Translations under genes and position numbers: made by a program
NCBI RefSeq assembly: GCF_024701375.2
Contig: NZ_CP113910.1
Coordinates: forward strand, 5,642,001 to 5,706,000
Direction of reading: 5' to 3'
Source: Streptomyces sp. KMM 9044
GTDB taxonomy: Bacteria > Actinomycetota > Actinomycetes > Streptomycetales > Streptomycetaceae
Length of the DNA stretch: 64,000 nt
The notes under the pieces: model-generated
Seen by the model: the letters and a program-made list of their open reading frames with translations, nothing else
Told to the model about the DNA's origin: nothing
The model's database searches: none
Shown here: positions 13,368 to 22,059 of the stretch, one piece after another
Layout: each line of letters begins with the position of its first letter
Position numbering within the stretch: position 1 is the first letter of the stretch

Positions 13368-13894
13368 ATGGGCGTCATGAACATCATGCTGTTTCACTCG
13401 ACCTACGGCCCGCGGCCCGCGGTGTCCGCGGCCGCGGACCGGCTGCGCGGCGCCGGGCACGAGGTGGGGACGCCCGACCTCTTCGGGGGCCGTACGTTCG
13501 ACACGGTCGAGGAGGGCATGGCTCACCAGGAGTCCATCGGCAGGGACGAGTTGCTGAGGCGGGCCGTGCTCGCCGCCGCACCCTGCTCGGAGCGGGGGCT
13601 GGTGTACGCCGGGTTCTCCTTCGGTGCCTCCGTCGCCCAGACACTGGCGCTCGGAGACGGCAGGGCGCGCGGGCTGCTGCTCCTGCACGGCACCTCGGAC
13701 ATCGCGGCGAACGCGACGGTGGACGGCCTGCCGGTGCAGCTCCACGTCGCCGAGCCGGACCCGTTCGAGACCGACGACTGGCTGAGCGCCTGGTATCTGC
13801 AGATGGGCCGCGCCGGAGCCGACGTCGAGGTGTACCGGTACGCGGGGGCAGGCCACCTCTACACCGACCCCGACCTGCCGGACCACGACGAGGA
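13368..13894 (+). pseudogene. Dienelactone-hydrolase-family gene, 5' part (interrupted by the Tn3 element)
   Basis: N-terminal 175 codons of an alpha/beta hydrolase of the DLH/YghX-like type: MNIMLFHSTYGPRPAV start, GFSFGASVAQTLALG nucleophile-elbow-like segment, and GAGHLYTDPDLPDHDEE near the end. The transposon inserts after base 13894, so translation now runs into the left terminal repeat and stops at 13943. Joining 13894 to 22060 restores a continuous frame of about 195 residues ending TLEND. The gene was intact before insertion. The nucleophile position reads FGAS and not GCxxG, so the catalytic residue is uncertain. Confidence 0.88.
13890..13894. repeat. 5-bp target-site duplication GAGGA (left copy)
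   Basis: GAGGA directly abuts the left terminal repeat and is repeated at 22055–22059 outside the right end. Five-base duplications are the hallmark of Tn3-family transposition. Confidence 0.92.
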
Positions 13895-13932
13895 GGCCCT
13901 GTTCTCCCGAAGCTGCCACGAAGTGACAAGTA
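13895..13932 (+). repeat. Left terminal inverted repeat of the Tn3-family element
   Basis: Starts GGCCCTGTTCTCCCGAAGCT and continues to AAGTA at 13932. The first 32 bases are identical to the reverse complement of the right end, base 33 differs (C versus A), and five more bases match. The length of 38 bp is standard for Tn3 elements. Confidence 0.94.
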
Positions 13933-14044
13933 GCTCTCTGTAGCGGGTCTGGGGTCTGCTTGTCAGAGTTTTGGATCTTCTGGGCTCATCGAGCGCCGTG
14001 CTGAGCGAGGTTGGTCCGGTCATGACGACCGGAAGGAGCCCGGG

Positions 14045-16998
14045 GTGCGGCAGGAGTGGGAGCCGGAGGACCTGATCGAGGTCTGGACGCTGCTGGAGGA
14101 GGACCAGGAAAGGCTGCGGAACAAGTCGGGGGCGAACAGGTTGGGGTTCGCGCTGTTGCTGAAGTTCTTCGAGGTGGAGGCCCGGTTCCCGGAGGACGCC
14201 GGGGAGATCCCGGTGCCGGCGGTGTCGTACGTCGCCCAGCAGGTGAAGGTGGCGGCGGATGAGTGGGTCGCGTACGACTGGTCGGGGCGGGCGATCAAAC
14301 GGCACCGGACGGAGATCCGGGCCGCGTTCGGCTTCCGTGAGTGCACCAAGGAGGACCAGGCCCAGCTCGCGGAGTGGCTGGCGGTCGAGCTGTGCGGGGT
14401 GGAGCTGAACCGGGACCGGCTCGCGGAGGCGGTGGTGGCCCGGTGCCGCAACGACCGGCTGGAGCCGCCGACGACCGGGCGTATCGCCCGGTTGGTGGGC
14501 TCGGCGGTCAGCACCTTCGAGGAGCGGTTCTGCGCGGCCACGGTGGGCCGGCTGTCGGCGGCGACCCGCTCGCGGCTGGACGACCTGATCGCCGAGGACG
14601 CCGGCACGGACGAGAGCGCGGGCAGTGGGGGCACGTTCTTCACCGAGCTGAAGGCGGACCCGGGTGCGTTGGGGCTGGACAGCCTGCTGGCGGAGGTGAA
14701 CAAGCTCCAGCGGGTGCGCGGGCTTCAGCTGCCACCGGAGCTGTTCGGGGACGTGTCGGAGAAGCTGGTGGCGGCCTGGAGGGCGCGGGCGGCGAAGGAG
14801 TACCCCTCGGACCTGCGGGCGGCGGCCGGGCCGGTGCGGTACGCGCTGCTGTCGACGCTGTGCCATGTGCGGGAGACGGAGATCACCGACTCGCTGGTGG
14901 AACTGTTCATCCAGCTCGTGCAGAAGATCAACACGCGGGCGGAGAAGAAGGTAGAGGGCGAGTTCAACAAGGAGTTGAAGCGGGTCCGCGGCAAGGAGGG
15001 CATCCTGCTGCGGCTGGCGGAGGCGGCGGTCGCGGAGCCGGGCGGCACGGTCCGCAAGGTGATCTATCCGGTGGCCGGTGAGTCCACCTCGAAGGCCCTG
15101 GCGGCGGAGGCCGCGGCGAACGAGGCTCGTTACCGGGCCCGGGTGCGGACGGTGCTGCGCTCGTCGTACTCGGGCCACTGGCGGCGGATGCTCTCGCCTC
15201 TGCTGAACGCGCTGGAGCTGAAGTGCAACAACACCGCCTACCGGCCGGTGATGGACGCGATCGACCTGCTCAAGCGGTACCTGGATCAGCCCATCGCCAA
15301 GGAGGGCGCGTTCTTCGACGAGGAGGAGAAGATCCCACTCGCGGGGGGTGGTGCGCGAGGAGTGGCGCAAGGCGGTCGTGGACGAGCGCGGCCGGGTCGA
15401 GCGCATCCCGTACGAGCTGTGCGTGCTCGTGGCGCTGCGGGACGCCCTGCGGCGCCGGGAGATCTGGGTGCCGGTGGCGGAACCCGGAGGACGATCTGCC
15501 GCCGGACTTCGAGGACCACCGCGATGTGCACTACGACGCGATCCGCCAGCCGCAGGACCCGCAGAAGTTCATCGATGCCCTTCAGAAGCGGCTGCGCGAG
15601 GCCCTGACCCGCTTCGACACGGCGCTGGAGCTGGGCACCACGGGTGGGGTGGACATCGTCAAGCGGCACGGCGAGCCGTGGATCAAGGTCTCGCCGCTGG
15701 GCAAGCAGGAGGAGCCGGAGAACCTCGTCGCCCTGAAGGCGGAGATCGAGCGCCGCTGGGGCACCATCGACCTGACCGACATCCTCAAGGAAGCCGAGTT
15801 CGCCACCGGCTTCACGTCCGAGTTCACCTCGGTCGCCACGCGGGAGGCGGTCCCGAAGGCGGTGTTGCGGCGCCGGCTGCTGCTGGTGCTGTTCGCGCTG
15901 GGGACGAACATGGGCATCAAGCGGGTCGCGGTCACCGGCAAGCACGGCGAGAGCGAGGCCGTCCTGCGCCGGGTACGGCACCTGTTCGTCAACCGGACCA
16001 ACATGCGCGCGGCGCTGGTGCGGCTGGTCAACGCCACCTTCGCCGCCCGCGATGCCGCGTGGTGGGGCGAGGGCACCGCCTGCGCGAGCGACTCCAAGAA
16101 GTTCGGCTCCCGGTCCTCGAACTTCATGACCGAGTGGCACCAGCGGTACCGCGGGCCCGGCGTGATGATCTACTGGCACGTCGAGAAGAAGTCGCTGTGC
16201 GTCTACAGCCAGCTCAAGTCCTGCTCGGCCTCTGAGGTCGCCGCGATGATCGAGGGTGTGCTGCGGCACTGCACGGACGTGGAGATCGACCGGCATTACA
16301 CCGACACGCACGGCGCCTCCATCGTCGGGTTCGCCTTCGCCCACATGCTCGGCTTCAACCTGCTGCCCAGGCTGAAGAACGTCGGCTCGGCGCGGCTGTA
16401 CCGGCTGGCGGCCGGGGAGGACGAGAAGTGGCCGCACCTGGCGCCGGTGTTGTCGACCAAGACGATCGACTGGGACCTGATCCGCCAGCAGTACGACCAG
16501 ATCGTGAAGTACACCACCGCCCTGCGCCTGGGCACCGCGGAGGCTGAGCAGGTCCTGCGGCGTTTCACCCGCGGCGGCCCGAAGCACCCGACGTACCGGG
16601 CGATCGAGGAACTTGGGCGTGCGGTGCGTACGGCGTTCATCTGCGACTACCTCGCCGACGCGGACCTGCGGCGCGAGATCAACGACGGGCTCCAGGTCGT
16701 GGAGAACTGGAACTCCGCCAACCACGACCTGTTCTACGGCAAGGACGGCGACCTGACCGGCTCCGACAAGGAGAGCCAGGAGGTCTCCATGCTCGCCCTG
16801 CACCTGCTCCAGTCGGCGTTGGTGCACGTCAACACCCTGCTCCTCCAGGACATCCTGAGTGAGGAGAAGTGGCAGAAGCGGCTTACCGACGCCGACCGGC
16901 GGGCTCTGTCCCCGCTGTTCTGGACCCACGTGAACCCTTACGGCCGGTTCGAGCTGGACATGAACTCCCACCTCGCCCTTGCCGCCATCGTCATCTAG
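14045..16998 (+). pseudogene. tnpA: Tn3-family transposase TnpA, two frame breaks
   Basis: From GTG 14045 (AAGGAG upstream) the protein matches a TnpA N-terminal DUF4158-type domain (ANRLGFALLLKFFEVEARF) and DNA-binding region. The DDE domain follows in another frame: Asp codon 16090 (ASDSKKF), Asp 16303 (HYTDTHGAS) and Glu 16702 ([10 protein letters not shown]). The reading frame moves +1 at the six-G run 15343–15348 (IPLAG then VVREEWRKA). It moves +1 again near 15470–15482, where the usual residues between EIWV and RWRNPEDDL are missing, as in an 8–11-nt deletion. Repaired, it would be about 985 residues, normal for the family. All three catalytic residues survive. Confidence 0.92.
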
Positions 16999-17195
16999 GG
17001 GGTGGCACCTCTTTCCGCTGCTCAGGTGGCTGATCAAGGGTGCAGGCAAGTTCGGCAAGTACGACTTGTCATGCCCGAGCAACGTGGTTCGGCCGAACCA
17101 CGTCAGGGCCCCTGTTCGAACGTTCGGTCACCTGCAAAATCCTCCACGTCGACCGCACCCCCGTCCTCAACTGACCGCAATGAGGCACCCCAGAA

Positions 17196-17247
17196 CCAGC
17201 CGTAGGGCCGCCCCCGCAGATCACTGCGGGGGCGGCCCTACGGCTGG
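17196..17247. repeat. Perfect 24-bp inverted repeat inside the transposon
   Basis: Arms 17196–17219 and 17224–17247 are perfect complements with a 4-nt loop (ATCA). It lies 197 bp after tnpA and ends 46 bp before the SUKH gene start. It could terminate tnpA transcription or be a DNA-level cruciform site. Thirteen bases of an arm (CAGCCGTAGGGCC) recur at 20556–20568 ahead of the nuclease gene. Confidence 0.85.
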
Positions 17248-17293
17248 CATCCTGGCAGACAGCATCCAACGACCCAGAGGGGGAAACGGAACC

Positions 17294-18217
17294 TTGACCG
17301 TGACCGTGGACATACCCGACCACATACGCGACCTCTGTGCCCACCTCGGAGACGGTGTCCCATACGCGGTCAAGGTCCTCGCTCGGCAACTGGCCGACGA
17401 CCCCCGTCTGGGCAAGCGCACCGGCAGGCTCGGCCTGTACGCTGCGACGATCGACGGCGACACCTTCGATGACTGCCCGCCCCTGACCGTGCGCTACGCC
17501 TACGGCCCGCCCCTGATGGCGGAGGGGCAGCTCCAGATCCGTGACGTCGAAGCCACCGGACCGCTCCCCGCCACCAGCGATACCGACGACGGCCAGGCCC
17601 CCGATCCGCGCCTGGAGCAGATCGCCGTACGGCAGGTGACCGGGGCGTGGCAGCGAATTACCTCATGGCTTGAGCAGAACGCGCCGGCCTCGCACGAGGC
17701 GCTGCTGCCCGCCGCGGCCGAGCAGGACATCGACGCCCTGGTGCAGCAGCTGGGCGTGCGTGTGCCGGTGGAACTGCGGGCGCTGTGGCTGCTGTGCGCC
17801 GGCAACCAGGACATCCCGGATGCCGGCTTCTTCCCCGATCACGGGTGGGCGTTGATGCCGTTGGACTCGGTTTGTGCGGTCTACCGGCGGCAGTCGCGCT
17901 GGCAGCAGGACCACGACAATGAGGAGTCGTGGATGTGGAAGCCGTCCTGGATCCCGTTCTGCTCGTGGTCGGTGACCGACACCAGCTATGGCCTGTTCGT
18001 CGACGCGGAGACGGGCGAGGTTGGGCACTGGGACGACACGGCCGTGCGCACCGTCGAGGACAATTCGCTGACGATGCTGCTGGAGGAGATCGCCGACAAG
18101 CTGGAGAATCCGCAGCTGGCCACCGGATACCGCCCCGGTCTGGTCGGGGAAAGGCTGGTGTGGGGTCCGCCGGTCGCGGCGGACGAGGCCGCCCTGTGGC
18201 GGCCGTTCACTGGCTGA
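17294..18217 (+). CDS. SUKH (SMI1/KNR4) family protein, transposon cargo
   Basis: A 307-residue cytoplasmic protein without signal peptide. Residues about 1–85 form a module of unknown function containing DDCPPLTVRYAYGPP. Residues about 115–285 match a SMI1/KNR4 (SUKH) fold: an ALLPAAAEQDIDALVQQLG helix, PVELRALWLLCAGNQD, FFPDHGWALMPLDSV, WIPFCSWSVTDTSYGLFVDAETGEVG (quoted in part). SUKH proteins often act as immunity proteins against bacterial toxins, especially nucleases. TTG 17294 is chosen because GAGGGGG lies 10 bp upstream; in-frame GTGs follow at 17300 and 17306. It converges with the nuclease gene at 18285. Family call good; immunity role inferred. Confidence 0.72.
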   Translation: MTVTVDIPDHIRDLCAHLGDGVPYAVKVLARQLADDPRLGKRTGRLGLYAATIDGDTFDDCPPLTVRYAYGPPLMAEGQLQIRDVEATGPLPATSDTDDGQAPDPRLEQIAVRQVTGAWQRITSWLEQNAPASHEALLPAAAEQDIDALVQQLGVRVPVELRALWLLCAGNQDIPDAGFFPDHGWALMPLDSVCAVYRRQSRWQQDHDNEESWMWKPSWIPFCSWSVTDTSYGLFVDAETGEVGHWDDTAVRTVEDNSLTMLLEEIADKLENPQLATGYRPGLVGERLVWGPPVAADEAALWRPFTG

Positions 18218-18224
18218 CGCGAGA

Positions 18225-18260
18225 GAAGGGGCGGACAGGCAGTTGCCTGTCCGCCCCTTC
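18225..18260. terminator. Bidirectional hairpin terminator between the SUKH and nuclease genes
   Basis: Perfect 17-bp inverted repeat (18225–18241 with 18244–18260) with a minimal loop, lying between two convergent stops (18217 and 18285). It should end transcription from both sides. Confidence 0.8.
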
Positions 18261-18284
18261 GTGCTTCCTGGGGTCAGGTGGTGC

Positions 18285-20402
18285 TTACACCTTGCGCCAG
18301 GTGCAGGTCACCGCCACGCCCGAGCAGTGGTTGAACCCCGGGGTGTCGATGAAGAATCCGTCCCCGTCGGTCAGCCGCCAGACCGACGGTTGGAGCTTGT
18401 GGAATGCGCCCTGGTTCTGCGCCGAGTCGATCGCCGCCCGGCCGCAGCGCTCCGTACCTGTCGGGCCGTTGGTCGCGACGCGGGTGTCCGCGAGAAGACC
18501 GAACGACGTCGACCCGTCACCGACCCCGTTGAACACCCAGTCGGTGTACAACTGGGCGCACTGGTTGCCGCTGGTGACCTGGTTGACCCCGCCAGGGAAC
18601 CCGCCGGACTCGTGCGTGGACGCGGGCGCGTACTCGTCGCAGCCGGTGGTGCCGACGATGCTGTCCGCAGGGTGCTTGGTCCACGTGCTGGGGCACACCA
18701 CCTTGCGGCTGTCGTCCGAGGACCAGGGCGCCCCCGTGGACGGGTTCTTCACCGTGGTGTCCGGACCCAGGTAGTGCACCAGACTGTCCCATTTCTTGGA
18801 GCCGGCATGGTCGGGCATCCGCTCCTGCATCAGCCAGTAGTAGCCACCCGCCGCCGGGTAGAGGTTGGTGTCCAGGGTGAACGTCGGCTTGAAGAACGGC
18901 AGCACGCAGCCTGGGGTGACCGCGCCGCGGGTGATGTCGTCGCACCGCGGGGCGAGTTCCCGCACGGAGGCGACACCGCTGGTGCCGAAGTCTGCCGTCG
19001 CGTCGACGGAGTTGCTGGCGTCGACGGTCGCGGTGATCGACCAGTCCAGATCGATCTGCTCCTTGCCGGTGCCGAGCCAGCGGGTCACCACGGTGCCCCA
19101 CATGCTGCGGTAGTCCTGGAGCGGGTCGTAGTCCCAGTGCGCGCCGTTGACGGGGTTGGCGCCGTCGTCGGTCCACTGGATCGGCGCCACGTCGCACGCC
19201 GAGCACGACGAGTCGATGTCCCACCGCATCGTGACGCCTTCCAGTGCGGGGTCGATGTAGGTGGGGGCGATCACGAGCTGCTGGTCGAACTCGGCGAAGT
19301 CGCTGCCGGATTCGGTCTTGTTGCGGTAGGTCTTCATCCGCTGCTCGAACAGGAACGTGCCCCTACCGATGGCCGGCTTCTGCGGGTCGGAGTCGAAGAA
19401 CCACAGCTCGCCCTCACCCAGAGTTTTCAGGCAGGCTTCGGTGCGGTTCATGTAGTCCAGGCCCTCGGCGGCGTTGGTGCACCAGTCGACCAGGTCGACC
19501 GCATCGTTACCGCCCGGCGTCGACATGATCCCCGCCGACTCGGCCGACTTGGCGGTGAACGTCTGCTTGGTCTCCCGGGTCTTTCCGGACTTCGGCGGAG
19601 CCTGCACGGACTTGGCCTTGTCCCGTTTGACCATGCGGAAGCACACCGTGCGGTCAGCCTTGTCCTGCTTGGAGCAGTCGTCCTTGTCGAAGTCCGCCAG
19701 CGTCGGCGACGGCTGTTCCGTGGCCGTGGCCGTGGCCGTGGCCGTGGACGTCGCGGTGGCGGAGCCGTCCGGGTCGGTGCGGGTGAACTCCACCGTGGTC
19801 TGTGCGGTCGAGTCGATTCCCGAGGTGGACTGTGCGACGGGGAACGTCACGTAGGGCTCGATGCGGAACTTCGCCCATGGGGACCAGGTGTTTTCGTACA
19901 GGCTGCCGTCGTAGGCGTTGGTGTGCACCAGGTAGGTGGTGCGCGGCTTCAGCCGGCCGTAGTCGACCTTGACCGACGCCGTGCTGCCGGACGCCACATA
20001 CGGGGACACCAGCACCCCGTACGAGTTGGCGTCGGTCAGCTTGACCTTGGTGCCCGGCGTGCCGTCGGCGTTGGCCGTCCACACTTCGAATGTCAGGGTC
20101 GACTTTTCCCCGTCGGCGTCGGTGACGGTGTTGCGCAGCACGACCTCGGGGGCGACGACCCGCCATGTGTCGCCGGACTTGGTGAACTTCGGGCCGGCGG
20201 ACGGGTTACTTCCCGACACCGGACGCGACCCTGCCGTGATGGACATCTCCGCTTCCGGTCCGTGGACCTTCGGCGGCGCGGCCAGCGGACCAGGCCCCTT
20301 CGGTGAACCGGCGGCGGAAGCCGTTCCCGCCCCGGCCAGAACAGCAAGAACGGCGCCAGCTGCCATGCAGCGCAGCGCCGCCGTTATACGTGTGCGTCTC
20401 AA
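18285..20402 (-). CDS. Secreted protein with C-terminal NucA/NucB-like DNase domain, transposon cargo
   Basis: A 705-residue protein exported by the Sec route: MRRTRITAALRCMAAGAVLAV is followed by ASA-A at about residue 30. Residues about 80–195 look like a fibronectin/carbohydrate-module fold (WRVVAPEVVLRNTV to WSPWAKFRIEPYV), then a Thr/Ala (ATATATAT) linker. The C-terminal ~130 residues match actinobacterial NucA/NucB DNases: VVCPSTW, GCDEYAPASTHESGG (about 585), SAQNQGAF and RLTDGDGFFID. NucB-type enzymes degrade extracellular DNA. The start is TTG 20402 with GGAGG 4 bp upstream. Domain assignment is from motifs only. Confidence 0.68.
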   Translation of the reverse strand: MRRTRITAALRCMAAGAVLAVLAGAGTASAAGSPKGPGPLAAPPKVHGPEAEMSITAGSRPVSGSNPSAGPKFTKSGDTWRVVAPEVVLRNTVTDADGEKSTLTFEVWTANADGTPGTKVKLTDANSYGVLVSPYVASGSTASVKVDYGRLKPRTTYLVHTNAYDGSLYENTWSPWAKFRIEPYVTFPVAQSTSGIDSTAQTTVEFTRTDPDGSATATSTATATATATEQPSPTLADFDKDDCSKQDKADRTVCFRMVKRDKAKSVQAPPKSGKTRETKQTFTAKSAESAGIMSTPGGNDAVDLVDWCTNAAEGLDYMNRTEACLKTLGEGELWFFDSDPQKPAIGRGTFLFEQRMKTYRNKTESGSDFAEFDQQLVIAPTYIDPALEGVTMRWDIDSSCSACDVAPIQWTDDGANPVNGAHWDYDPLQDYRSMWGTVVTRWLGTGKEQIDLDWSITATVDASNSVDATADFGTSGVASVRELAPRCDDITRGAVTPGCVLPFFKPTFTLDTNLYPAAGGYYWLMQERMPDHAGSKKWDSLVHYLGPDTTVKNPSTGAPWSSDDSRKVVCPSTWTKHPADSIVGTTGCDEYAPASTHESGGFPGGVNQVTSGNQCAQLYTDWVFNGVGDGSTSFGLLADTRVATNGPTGTERCGRAAIDSAQNQGAFHKLQPSVWRLTDGDGFFIDTPGFNHCSGVAVTCTWRKV

Positions 20403-21006
20403 CGATCCTCCGCTAAGGGCGCGAATGTTCGACGCAACCCCATCACGCGCAACTCCCGTAGGACAGAGGGAAGATCGCCATTCTGAGCGCGCGACGCTCG
20501 TACGGTCGGCCCCGCCGCCATCCTCGGATGGACTGTCGCGGCGGCACCCCGGAAGCAGCCGTAGGGCCCCGCAGCAATCTGACCTTGTTGGCTAATTCCT
20601 TCGGGCCTCGGCGACCCGGCGGCGGACAGTAGCTGGCCCGCGTCTGGCGGGAGGGCGCGATGGCGTGGGACGCGGTTTGGCGCGGGCTGTGGTCGGTCAA
20701 GCGCGGCGCTACCCCAACCAGCGCTCGGCGGCCCGCATGACGCCGACGTCGACGCGCGGCTCCTCGTTGCGGAGCTGGAACAGATGACGGCGACACCGTC
20801 GTCCGCCCCGTGGTGATCCACCCCGCCCGCGAGCAAGGGCCAGAGCTCCACACGCCGTCACGCTCACAAGCGGTCCTTTGTGAAAGCAAGATCATTTACA
20901 GACCGGGAAGACCCTCCGGAACCCGGATCGGTTCTCAGAACCCGTTCTCACTCAAAAGAAGGCCCGACCCCCTTCTGAGACTTGCATTGTGCGAAAATCC
21001 GGTCCC
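20403..21006. other. Non-coding interval between the nuclease and resolvase genes
   Basis: About 600 bp with divergent genes on either side, so it must hold the nuclease promoter (minus) and the resolvase promoter (plus). I find no convincing gene. It contains the 13-nt copy of the 17196 inverted-repeat arm (20556–20568) and, at its right end, clustered small inverted repeats typical of a resolution site. Confidence 0.45.
20930..20976. promoter_or_regulatory. Candidate resolution (res) site
   Basis: Two short palindromes, GGTTCTCAGAACC (20930–20942) and AGAAGG…CCTTCT (20957–20962 with 20971–20976), with TTCTCA/TTCTGA repeated three times, sit just upstream of the resolvase gene. Tn3 res sites are arrays of such imperfect dyads beside tnpR. 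The assignment rests on position and symmetry only. Confidence 0.45.
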
Positions 21007-22014
21007 ATGACGGCCCCTCAGCAGCCTTCGCCAACCGGCCGGTCGGACGCGGACGACGTTGACCAGCACGCATGTCCGAAGTGTGACGCGCAGCCCGGCT
21101 CGCCGTGCCGCTCGCGCGGCGGCGCGGTCGCCTCCGCCTACCACACACGCCGCTTCACCCTGGTGCCCCGGCTGAAGAAGGCGCTGCGGGTGCCCACCCC
21201 GGCCGACCGCGGACCTGGCCGGCCGTGGCGGCCGGGCACCCCGCCGCCGTCGCCGATCGACCCGGACCTGCCGAGCGCGGACATCCGCATCGGCTACGCC
21301 CGCTGCTCGACCCTCGGGCAGGAACTCGACTCCCAGCTCGACGCCCTCAGCAAGCACGGCATCCCGAGGGGCAAGATCTTCAGCGAGAAGATCAGCACCC
21401 GCATCCATGTACGGCCCAAGTTCGAGGAGGCGCTGCGGACCGCGCGGGAGGTCAAGGCGCACGCCCCGCACTGCCGGGTCATCTTCACCGTGTACGAGAT
21501 GAAGCGCCTCGGCCGCGACGCCGCCGAGCTCACCGCGCTCGCCGACCACCTCACCGCCCACGGCCTCATCCTGGAGATGCTCGCCGGACCCCTGCCTGGC
21601 ATCTACGACCCCACCGGCCCGGGCAAGCTGCTGTTCGCGTTTTTCGCCGCGATGGCGGAGACCGAGCGGGAGAACATCCGGGAGTCCACACTCGAAGGGC
21701 TCGATACCGCGGCCCGCAAGGGCAAGCACGGCGGCCGGCCCCCGGTCATCACCGACGACATGCTCCACACCGTGCTCCGGCGCCGGGCGAACGGTGAGTC
21801 CGTCGAGCAGATCCAGCCCGACCTGATCATTCCCACCGGCAAGCGCAAGGGCCAGAGCCCGTCCGTCGCCAGCATCTACCGGGCGCTCGCCGAACACGCC
21901 AAACGCGGGTCGTATCCCGAAGCCGTCGAGGAGGCTCACGCCGACTTCACCGCCCTCACCGGCAACGAAGTCCCTGAACCCCGCGCAGAAACCAAGGCCC
22001 TAACGACACGCTGA
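21007..22014 (+). CDS. tnpR: Serine resolvase TnpR with N-terminal zinc-finger domain
   Basis: A 335-residue serine recombinase that should resolve transposon cointegrates. An N-terminal CPKCDAQPGSPC motif (Cys23, Cys26, Cys34, with a His in SAYHTRR) forms a small zinc-finger-like domain. The resolvase catalytic domain begins IRIGYARCSTLGQELDSQ with nucleophilic Ser about 101, and has the E-helix AAMAETERENIRESTLEGL. A C-terminal helix-turn-helix (PPVITDDMLHTVLRRRANGE) follows. It is longer than classical Tn3 TnpR (~185 residues). The ATG at 21007 is chosen; a GTG at 20989 is in frame. It ends 3 bp before the right inverted repeat. Confidence 0.92.
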   Translation: MTAPQQPSPTGRSDADDVDQHACPKCDAQPGSPCRSRGGAVASAYHTRRFTLVPRLKKALRVPTPADRGPGRPWRPGTPPPSPIDPDLPSADIRIGYARCSTLGQELDSQLDALSKHGIPRGKIFSEKISTRIHVRPKFEEALRTAREVKAHAPHCRVIFTVYEMKRLGRDAAELTALADHLTAHGLILEMLAGPLPGIYDPTGPGKLLFAFFAAMAETERENIRESTLEGLDTAARKGKHGGRPPVITDDMLHTVLRRRANGESVEQIQPDLIIPTGKRKGQSPSVASIYRALAEHAKRGSYPEAVEEAHADFTALTGNEVPEPRAETKALTTR

Positions 22015-22016
22015 GT

Positions 22017-22054
22017 TACTTTTCACTTCGTGGCAGCTTCGGGAGAACAGGGCC
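22017..22054 (-). repeat. Right terminal inverted repeat of the Tn3-family element
   Basis: Reverse complement of 13895–13932 with one mismatch; its outer end is at 22054. Confidence 0.94.
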
Positions 22055-22059
22055 GAGGA
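22055..22059. repeat. 5-bp target-site duplication GAGGA (right copy)
   Basis: Matches 13890–13894 and directly follows the right terminal repeat. Confidence 0.92.

Follow-up and report, generated by a model that had tools for sequence, protein, structure and literature searches.

Barnase and barstar are a secreted nuclease and its cytoplasmic inhibitor, an arrangement also predicted for the two genes analysed here, although barnase is an RNase and the folds are different. These genes are carried by a Tn3-family element in a stretch of 64,000 nucleotides of Streptomyces sp. KMM 9044 (contig NZ_CP113910.1, positions 5,642,001 to 5,706,000; hereafter the window), within a genome of 7.43 Mb, and the nearest relatives of both cargo genes are found in Streptomyces. 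They encode a SUKH-1 protein and, in convergent orientation, a predicted secreted NucA/NucB-type DNase. We suggest that the pair is probably a polymorphic-toxin module in which the nuclease is the effector and the SUKH-1 protein confers immunity.

Closest among the described enzymes are Bacillus NucB and NucA (PF14040, bba-metal DNases) with Nin, which share the predicted fold, the Asp-Glu...Asn site, secretion (predicted in the present case) and, beside nucA, an inhibitor gene. However, the window nuclease has about 50 extra residues between the strand bearing the DE pair and the helix bearing the Asn, eight cysteines in its nuclease domain and large N-terminal modules; its PF14040 score is below the cut-off, and its partner is SUKH-1 or, in related loci, DUF6461-like. 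Polymorphic toxins with SUKH immunity (Zhang et al. 2012, PMC3482391) also combine a C-terminal nuclease, variable N-terminal modules, a SUKH partner and orphan immunity genes. As partners of SUKH that paper gives HNH-fold families, among them Tox-NucA with its GH, N, N, E signature, and we read this Tox-NucA as the Anabaena/Serratia and not the Bacillus kind. In contrast to these toxins, the window pair is convergent and its nuclease has a plain Sec-type start. The Streptomyces umbrella toxin particles (PMC11062931) are, as proposed for the window pair, secreted polymorphic toxins with downstream immunity genes (Imm1, Imm88), whereas the window nuclease is a single 75-kDa protein. Finally, Tde5-Tdi5a/Tdi5b of Pseudomonas (PMC13392607) associates a bba-metal DNase toxin family with structurally different immunity proteins; there, delivery is by a type VI secretion system and both immunity proteins share one locus, whereas here SUKH-1 and DUF6461-like proteins as a rule replace each other. 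The literature searched on NucA/NucB, SUKH and immunity in Streptomyces gave nothing on this pair, though the 2011 SUKH paper could mention it, and no paper containing the term DUF6461. The pair comprises the following features (window coordinates):

17294..18217, + strand: SUKH-1 (SMI1/KNR4) gene, 307 aa, candidate immunity protein (PF09346 E 1.9e-11; start backed by close homologues)
18225..18260, no strand: hairpin, candidate bidirectional terminator (17-bp arms 18225-18241 and 18244-18260, 100%; minimum free energy -48.1)
18285..20402, - strand: gene for a 705-aa protein with a signal-peptide-like N-terminus, candidate secreted DNase effector (open reading frame; N-terminus by inspection)
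18288..18950, - strand: NucA/NucB-type domain, residues 485-705 (predicted fold)
18636..18638, - strand: Asp589, equivalent of NucB Asp93 (from alignments; Glu590 next to it at 18633-18635)
18414..18416, - strand: Asn663, equivalent of NucB Asn117 (from alignments; N in 27/27 family sequences)
18933..19475, - strand: second beta-sandwich (Ig-like) region, about residues 310-490
19845..20249, - strand: FnIII/Ig-like N-terminal module, residues 52-186, common to much longer proteins, at least one of them with RHS repeats

The pairing was followed from the nuclease side in 101 genomes (11 candidates scored per genome) and from the SUKH side in 392 (5 per genome). Among the named-genome loci found by the nuclease, 17 of 18 have a convergent SUKH relative just downstream; the exception, L017, has a nuclease gene split between frames. 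Considering all 54 distinct nuclease genes (the window's included; matches at E <1e-40), the partner is a convergent SUKH-1 gene in 42, a convergent DUF6461-like gene in seven and a co-directional DUF6461-like gene in four, L017 alone having none. A putatively cognate partner gene thus adjoins 53 of the 54 nuclease genes, within 250 bp in 50 cases (median gap over all partners, 72 bp) and 1.1-1.4 kb away in three (L038, L140, L141). A wider set including SUKH-found loci gave a downstream partner in 62 of 63 rows and an upstream one in none, as far as the flanks reach; for this set, 67 rows were kept (63 at E <1e-40) and 16 dropped (13 duplicates, three short flanks), and L011/L023, L012/L083 and L013/L079 are probably counted twice. 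Genomes hold few SUKH genes (0-9 each, counted in 41), so that the pairing is poorly explained by chance. An earlier sequence-only reading of the window had pointed to a convergent orientation unlike that of classical toxin–immunity operons and had made the hypothesis depend on co-occurrence; 49 of the 54 nuclease genes are indeed convergent with their partner, and the nuclease is almost never found without a partner.

Matches L137, L139, L143 (no match), L059, L061 and G094:C1:7884936 were left out of the 54-gene count as weaker or fragmentary, as was L069, taken from the SUKH side; L137 and L139 showed no partner in the second-profile scan, yet further checks found DUF6461 downstream of both. 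Some of the partner proteins used for building the second SUKH and DUF6461 profiles came from loci that were later counted. Independently, profile A2 matched the SUKH of L003-L024 and L028, where present, and of L030, L032, L033, L038, L043, L122, L124, L125, L129-L133 and L136, while PF09346 was above its cut-off in L030, L032, L038, L043, L122, L124, L136, L138 and L144-L146, below it in L040 and silent in L033. An asymmetry in broken genes (nine of the 54 nuclease genes lack a 560-aa frame, in a count that kept some short-flank loci later replaced by longer stretches) was set aside because gene length and draft assemblies could explain it.

The window SUKH gene scores 45.1 bits with PF09346 (SMI1_KNR4, SUKH-1; cut-off 25.4), which confirms the family named from sequence. 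The domain covers residues 141-264; the extra N-terminal region is common to longer homologues and absent in shorter ones, and the protein is acidic (calculated pI 4.4). Both genes converge across 67 bases that contain the hairpin (-48.1 kcal/mol, z -5.98; 0/200 shuffles equally good); with its perfect 17-bp arms it is a candidate for the shared terminator proposed before.

For the nuclease, a full-length fold search returned mainly Ig/FnIII and other beta-rich chains and barely probed the nuclease part; the C-terminal domain was therefore folded alone. The prediction is a NucA/NucB fold in which D, E and N occupy their expected positions, in agreement with profile tests. The proposed NucA/NucB signature, whose three quoted motifs are all present, accordingly survived this check, Pfam being insufficient by itself. 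The catalytic D-E pair and the N are kept in 27/27 sequences of one alignment and in 27/28 of another, one row being gapped (the role of the Asp in NucB is described in PMC5758888). In view of its sub-cut-off PF14040 score, the window nuclease is described as a divergent sister group and not as a Pfam member; the cut-off is exceeded by four places elsewhere that the C-terminal domain matches. A PDB sequence search with the family profile gave no matches up to E 10, and a single PDB match of a piece of L039 (E 0.83) was taken as chance. As to the claimed Sec export, the N-terminus (RRTR, hydrophobic stretch, ASA) resembles a Sec signal peptide by eye, and the claim stands to that extent. The candidate toxin domain is mounted on exchangeable N-terminal modules: 11 of the 54 nucleases lie in frames >1,200 aa, the other backbone measuring ~700 aa, and the N-terminal module is shared with an RHS-repeat protein. 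Some part of the nuclease query was matched in 46 of the 101 genomes, in many through this module alone. Loci L034, L036 and L041 hold pairs of 1,600-2,160-aa frames sharing the same N-terminal FnIII-like module, divergent and <1 kb apart in L034 (at the start of an 8.6-Mb contig) and L041, convergent in L036.

The partner itself can be exchanged. Related downstream proteins replace SUKH in L031, L035, L042 and L044, that of L044 being DUF6461 by Pfam (E 2.5e-11), and DUF6461-like proteins take this place in 11 of the 54 nuclease genes; the idea that SUKH-less loci simply have no immunity was dropped once they were found there. Within these 11, PF20062 is above its cut-off in L044, below it in L128 and L134, and silent in L031, L035, L042, L126, L127, L135, L141 and L142, the silent cases being assigned by similarity to one another and to L044. 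Further DUF6461-like partners lie on plasmids, including pSV2, and two more nucleases adjoin DUF6461 above the cut-off (L139, E 1.1e-14; L147, E 1.1e-11). Across the 101 genomes, DUF6461 (65 places) is directly downstream of PF14040 in 9 of 53 places, against 0.008 expected under even spacing; seven of these pairs are co-directional and two convergent, and one lies elsewhere in the KMM 9044 genome, beyond the window. At G000:C1:750254-751076 of that genome, a PF14040 match in a 466-aa frame is followed by a same-strand DUF6461, giving a second nuclease-partner pair. Ten PF14040 loci were compared (L147-L156): L147 has DUF6461; a SUKH gene is co-directional in L151 and divergent, on the upstream side, in L155; L156 has both families nearby. 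On this evidence, DUF6461 appears to be one of a number of families that inhibit NucA/NucB nucleases. In L149, L150, L152 and L153, Streptomyces NucA/NucB genes are followed at ≤70 bp by a gene matching neither SUKH nor DUF6461 (in one case DUF6924), which may point to more partner families.

Seen from the SUKH side, a relative at E 1e-8 or better occurs in 146 of the 392 genomes. Leaving aside the window's genome, 57 places were listed at E 6.5e-36 or better, two of them identical and situated at opposite ends of a single contig. Of these 57, 18 have a nuclease in the fetched stretch (in L069 it adjoins another SUKH than the one searched) and 39 have none, their neighbours being mixed; the stretches of L066 and L108 reach <700 bases downstream. 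The nuclease thus almost always has a partner while SUKH is often alone, which is the one-way dependence expected of toxin-immunity pairs, although SUKH may by the same count have other roles. L055 and L056 (G065:C1, both ends) are orphan SUKH genes, 69% identical to the window's, ~3 kb from each end of an 8.5-Mb contig. In 25 pairs chosen for possessing all three parts, SUKH distances correlate at 0.73 with those of the nuclease domain and at 0.56 with those of the N-terminal module; the partial correlations are 0.57 and -0.015 respectively (0/2,000 permutations reach 0.57), so SUKH tracks the nuclease end.

The surrounding element extends from 13895 to 22054 and contains, besides the two cargo genes, a broken tnpA and a serine resolvase gene:

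13890..13894, no strand: target-site duplication GAGGA, left copy (sequence equality; host open reading frame restored across the empty site)
13895..13936, + strand: left terminal inverted repeat of the Tn3-family element (42 nt, 95% complementary to 22013-22054)
14045..15607, + strand: tnpA N-terminal piece, frame broken (PF13700 E 2.6e-30; NF033527 272.6 bits, profile 1-404)
15484..16998, + strand: tnpA C-terminal DDE piece, other frame (PF01526 E 4.1e-128; NF033527 496.7 bits, profile 473-953)
20989..22014, + strand: tnpR-type serine resolvase with zinc-binding N-terminus (PF00239 E 3.1e-25; PF24623 E 1.6e-10)
22013..22054, - strand: right terminal inverted repeat (42 nt, 95% complementary to the left end)
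22055..22059, no strand: target-site duplication GAGGA, right copy (sequence; open reading frame of the empty site)

Tn3-family elements are recognised by a Tn3 transposase, a resolvase, inverted ends of ~40 bp and a 5-bp duplication, all of which are present here, the transposase in pieces. Removing the element and one GAGGA joins the host flanks into a single 195-aa open reading frame. The claim that both genes move on one transposon therefore holds for the element itself; since tnpA is split over different frames, its present-day self-mobility is doubtful. The frame shifts between about 15290 and 15500, through decay or sequencing error. A Tn3 element on a Streptomyces plasmid (NBC_01795) has ends, tnpA and tnpR 90-93% identical to these but carries instead integrase genes, a quinone reductase, a PadR regulator and a hydrolase, which indicates that this backbone acquires different cargo. 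A further strong hairpin, at 17196-17247 between tnpA and the SUKH gene, has perfectly matched 24-bp arms around a 4-nt loop. The 13-mer CAGCCGTAGGGCC (≤1 mismatch) occurs at 17197-17209, 17234-17246 and 20556-20568 (three copies in the window, 0.23 expected), always at the two cargo edges, and may be left over from the capture of the cargo.

As a module the pair is widespread in Streptomyces, and the transposon is only one of its carriers. Among 49 plasmid records, we opened 14 of our own selection, and all 14 show a partner (nine SUKH, five DUF6461-like). Relatives of tnpA/tnpR were found, besides the window copies, in four of 111 loci scanned over a few kb of flank each rather than over whole elements (L019, L057 (weak), L073, L110), and transposition was dropped as the cause of pairing; L122 and L131 do have annotated Tn3 genes close to the pair. 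The L122 plasmid pair has 79% DNA identity over 17295-20493; next to its nuclease end, on the opposite side from the window arrangement, is a tnpA 3' piece, also 79% identical. Close to the plasmid pairs are also an Imm1 gene (L128), a barstar-family gene (L135) and a NACHT gene (L126).

How such a module might work can be outlined. Asp589-Glu590 and Asn663 would hold a metal ion in the predicted active site; the protein would be exported by Sec and, with eight cysteines in the domain, fold outside the cell, where the FnIII-like and Ig-like regions may help it to stay on or reach competing mycelium. The nuclease would then enter a sensitive cell by a putative route and cut its DNA. Inside the producer and its kin, SUKH-1 would bind and block the nuclease. 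The remark that a cytoplasmic SUKH guards only against re-entering nuclease is fair and fits this model, in which the owner would also be protected from enzyme that fails export.

The main rival is a scavenging enzyme of the barnase-barstar type, secreted to degrade extracellular DNA (nutrition, biofilm, mycelial turnover), with SUKH as intracellular inhibitor before or instead of export and no competitor involved. We consider it rather unlikely. It is in line with PMC5758888, where Bacillus NucB is a secreted DNase and nin, beside nucA, encodes a presumed inhibitor whose product inhibited both in assays, as well as with the signal-peptide-like start and with a specialised export system not having been noticed, none being searched for. 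Yet two unrelated partner families, backbones of ~700 and >1,200 aa, the RHS-shared module and orphan SUKH genes are more typical of polymorphic toxins, and the distribution over 46 of 101 genomes, often by the N-terminal module alone, is patchy. That the pair mainly stabilises its transposon or plasmid, residual nuclease from kin killing the cells that lose it, would suit its presence on the element and on the 14 plasmid records, but many copies are chromosomal, on large contigs, and SUKH genes also persist as orphans among mixed neighbours, making this addiction module very improbable. Least credible is the capture of unrelated neighbours by one transposon: although 39 of 57 SUKH relatives have no nuclease, 42 of 54 nucleases have a convergent downstream SUKH-1 in many contexts at the short median gap given above, and the lack of any upstream partner in 63 rows means that gene order already contradicts it.

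Several observations weigh against the toxin-immunity module as well. The essential His of NucB (His53, which supports the Asp) has no clearly conserved counterpart, the candidate H543 (placed without structural mapping) being present in 19/27 and 13/28 alignment rows. PF14040 reaches E 0.41 and 11.6 bits on the window protein (14.8 for the domain alone; cut-off 23.8) and at best E 0.0098 among the 12 matching of 28 alignment members, and Foldseek by itself gives a non-significant match (E 0.41). No downstream DUF6461 accompanies 44 of the 53 PF14040 places, six of the ten PF14040 loci opened show neither SUKH nor DUF6461 nearby, and most SUKH relatives stand alone. The closer co-divergence of SUKH and nuclease domain could stem from physical nearness alone. 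Toxin-immunity pairs are usually co-directional in one operon, a common but not defining trait; here only four of the 54 are co-directional. A dedicated secretion or entry system was not noticed, in an analysis that did not search for one. DNase activity, binding and killing are all predictions from sequence and model, whereas the DNA itself shows the element, the hairpin, the genes lying tail to tail, and a partner gene that is almost always present and can give way to a DUF6461-like one. The evidence somewhat favours antagonism over DNA scavenging without settling the matter. The earlier proposal of a mobile antagonism or DNA-scavenging module with immunity as cargo is thus supported by fold and co-occurrence and amended in two respects: the transposon is one carrier of a widespread module, and SUKH-1 can be swapped for a DUF6461-like protein.

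Taken further, we find it slightly more plausible than its negation that streptomycetes share a portable weapon-and-shield cassette, an overlooked NucA/NucB branch arranged tail-to-tail with a shield swappable between SUKH-1 and DUF6461, which would make DUF6461 an unrecognised nuclease-immunity family, and that Tn3 elements and plasmids spread this cassette. Convergent genes need separate promoters, so immunity could be kept when the toxin gene decays, and the convergent layout with its shared hairpin would explain in a simple way that immunity genes so commonly stand alone. The pair is small and occurs in soil strains. If this is true, the protein weapons known from Streptomyces would include a further class, a DNase, and DUF6461, a Pfam family of unknown function, would gain one, nuclease immunity.
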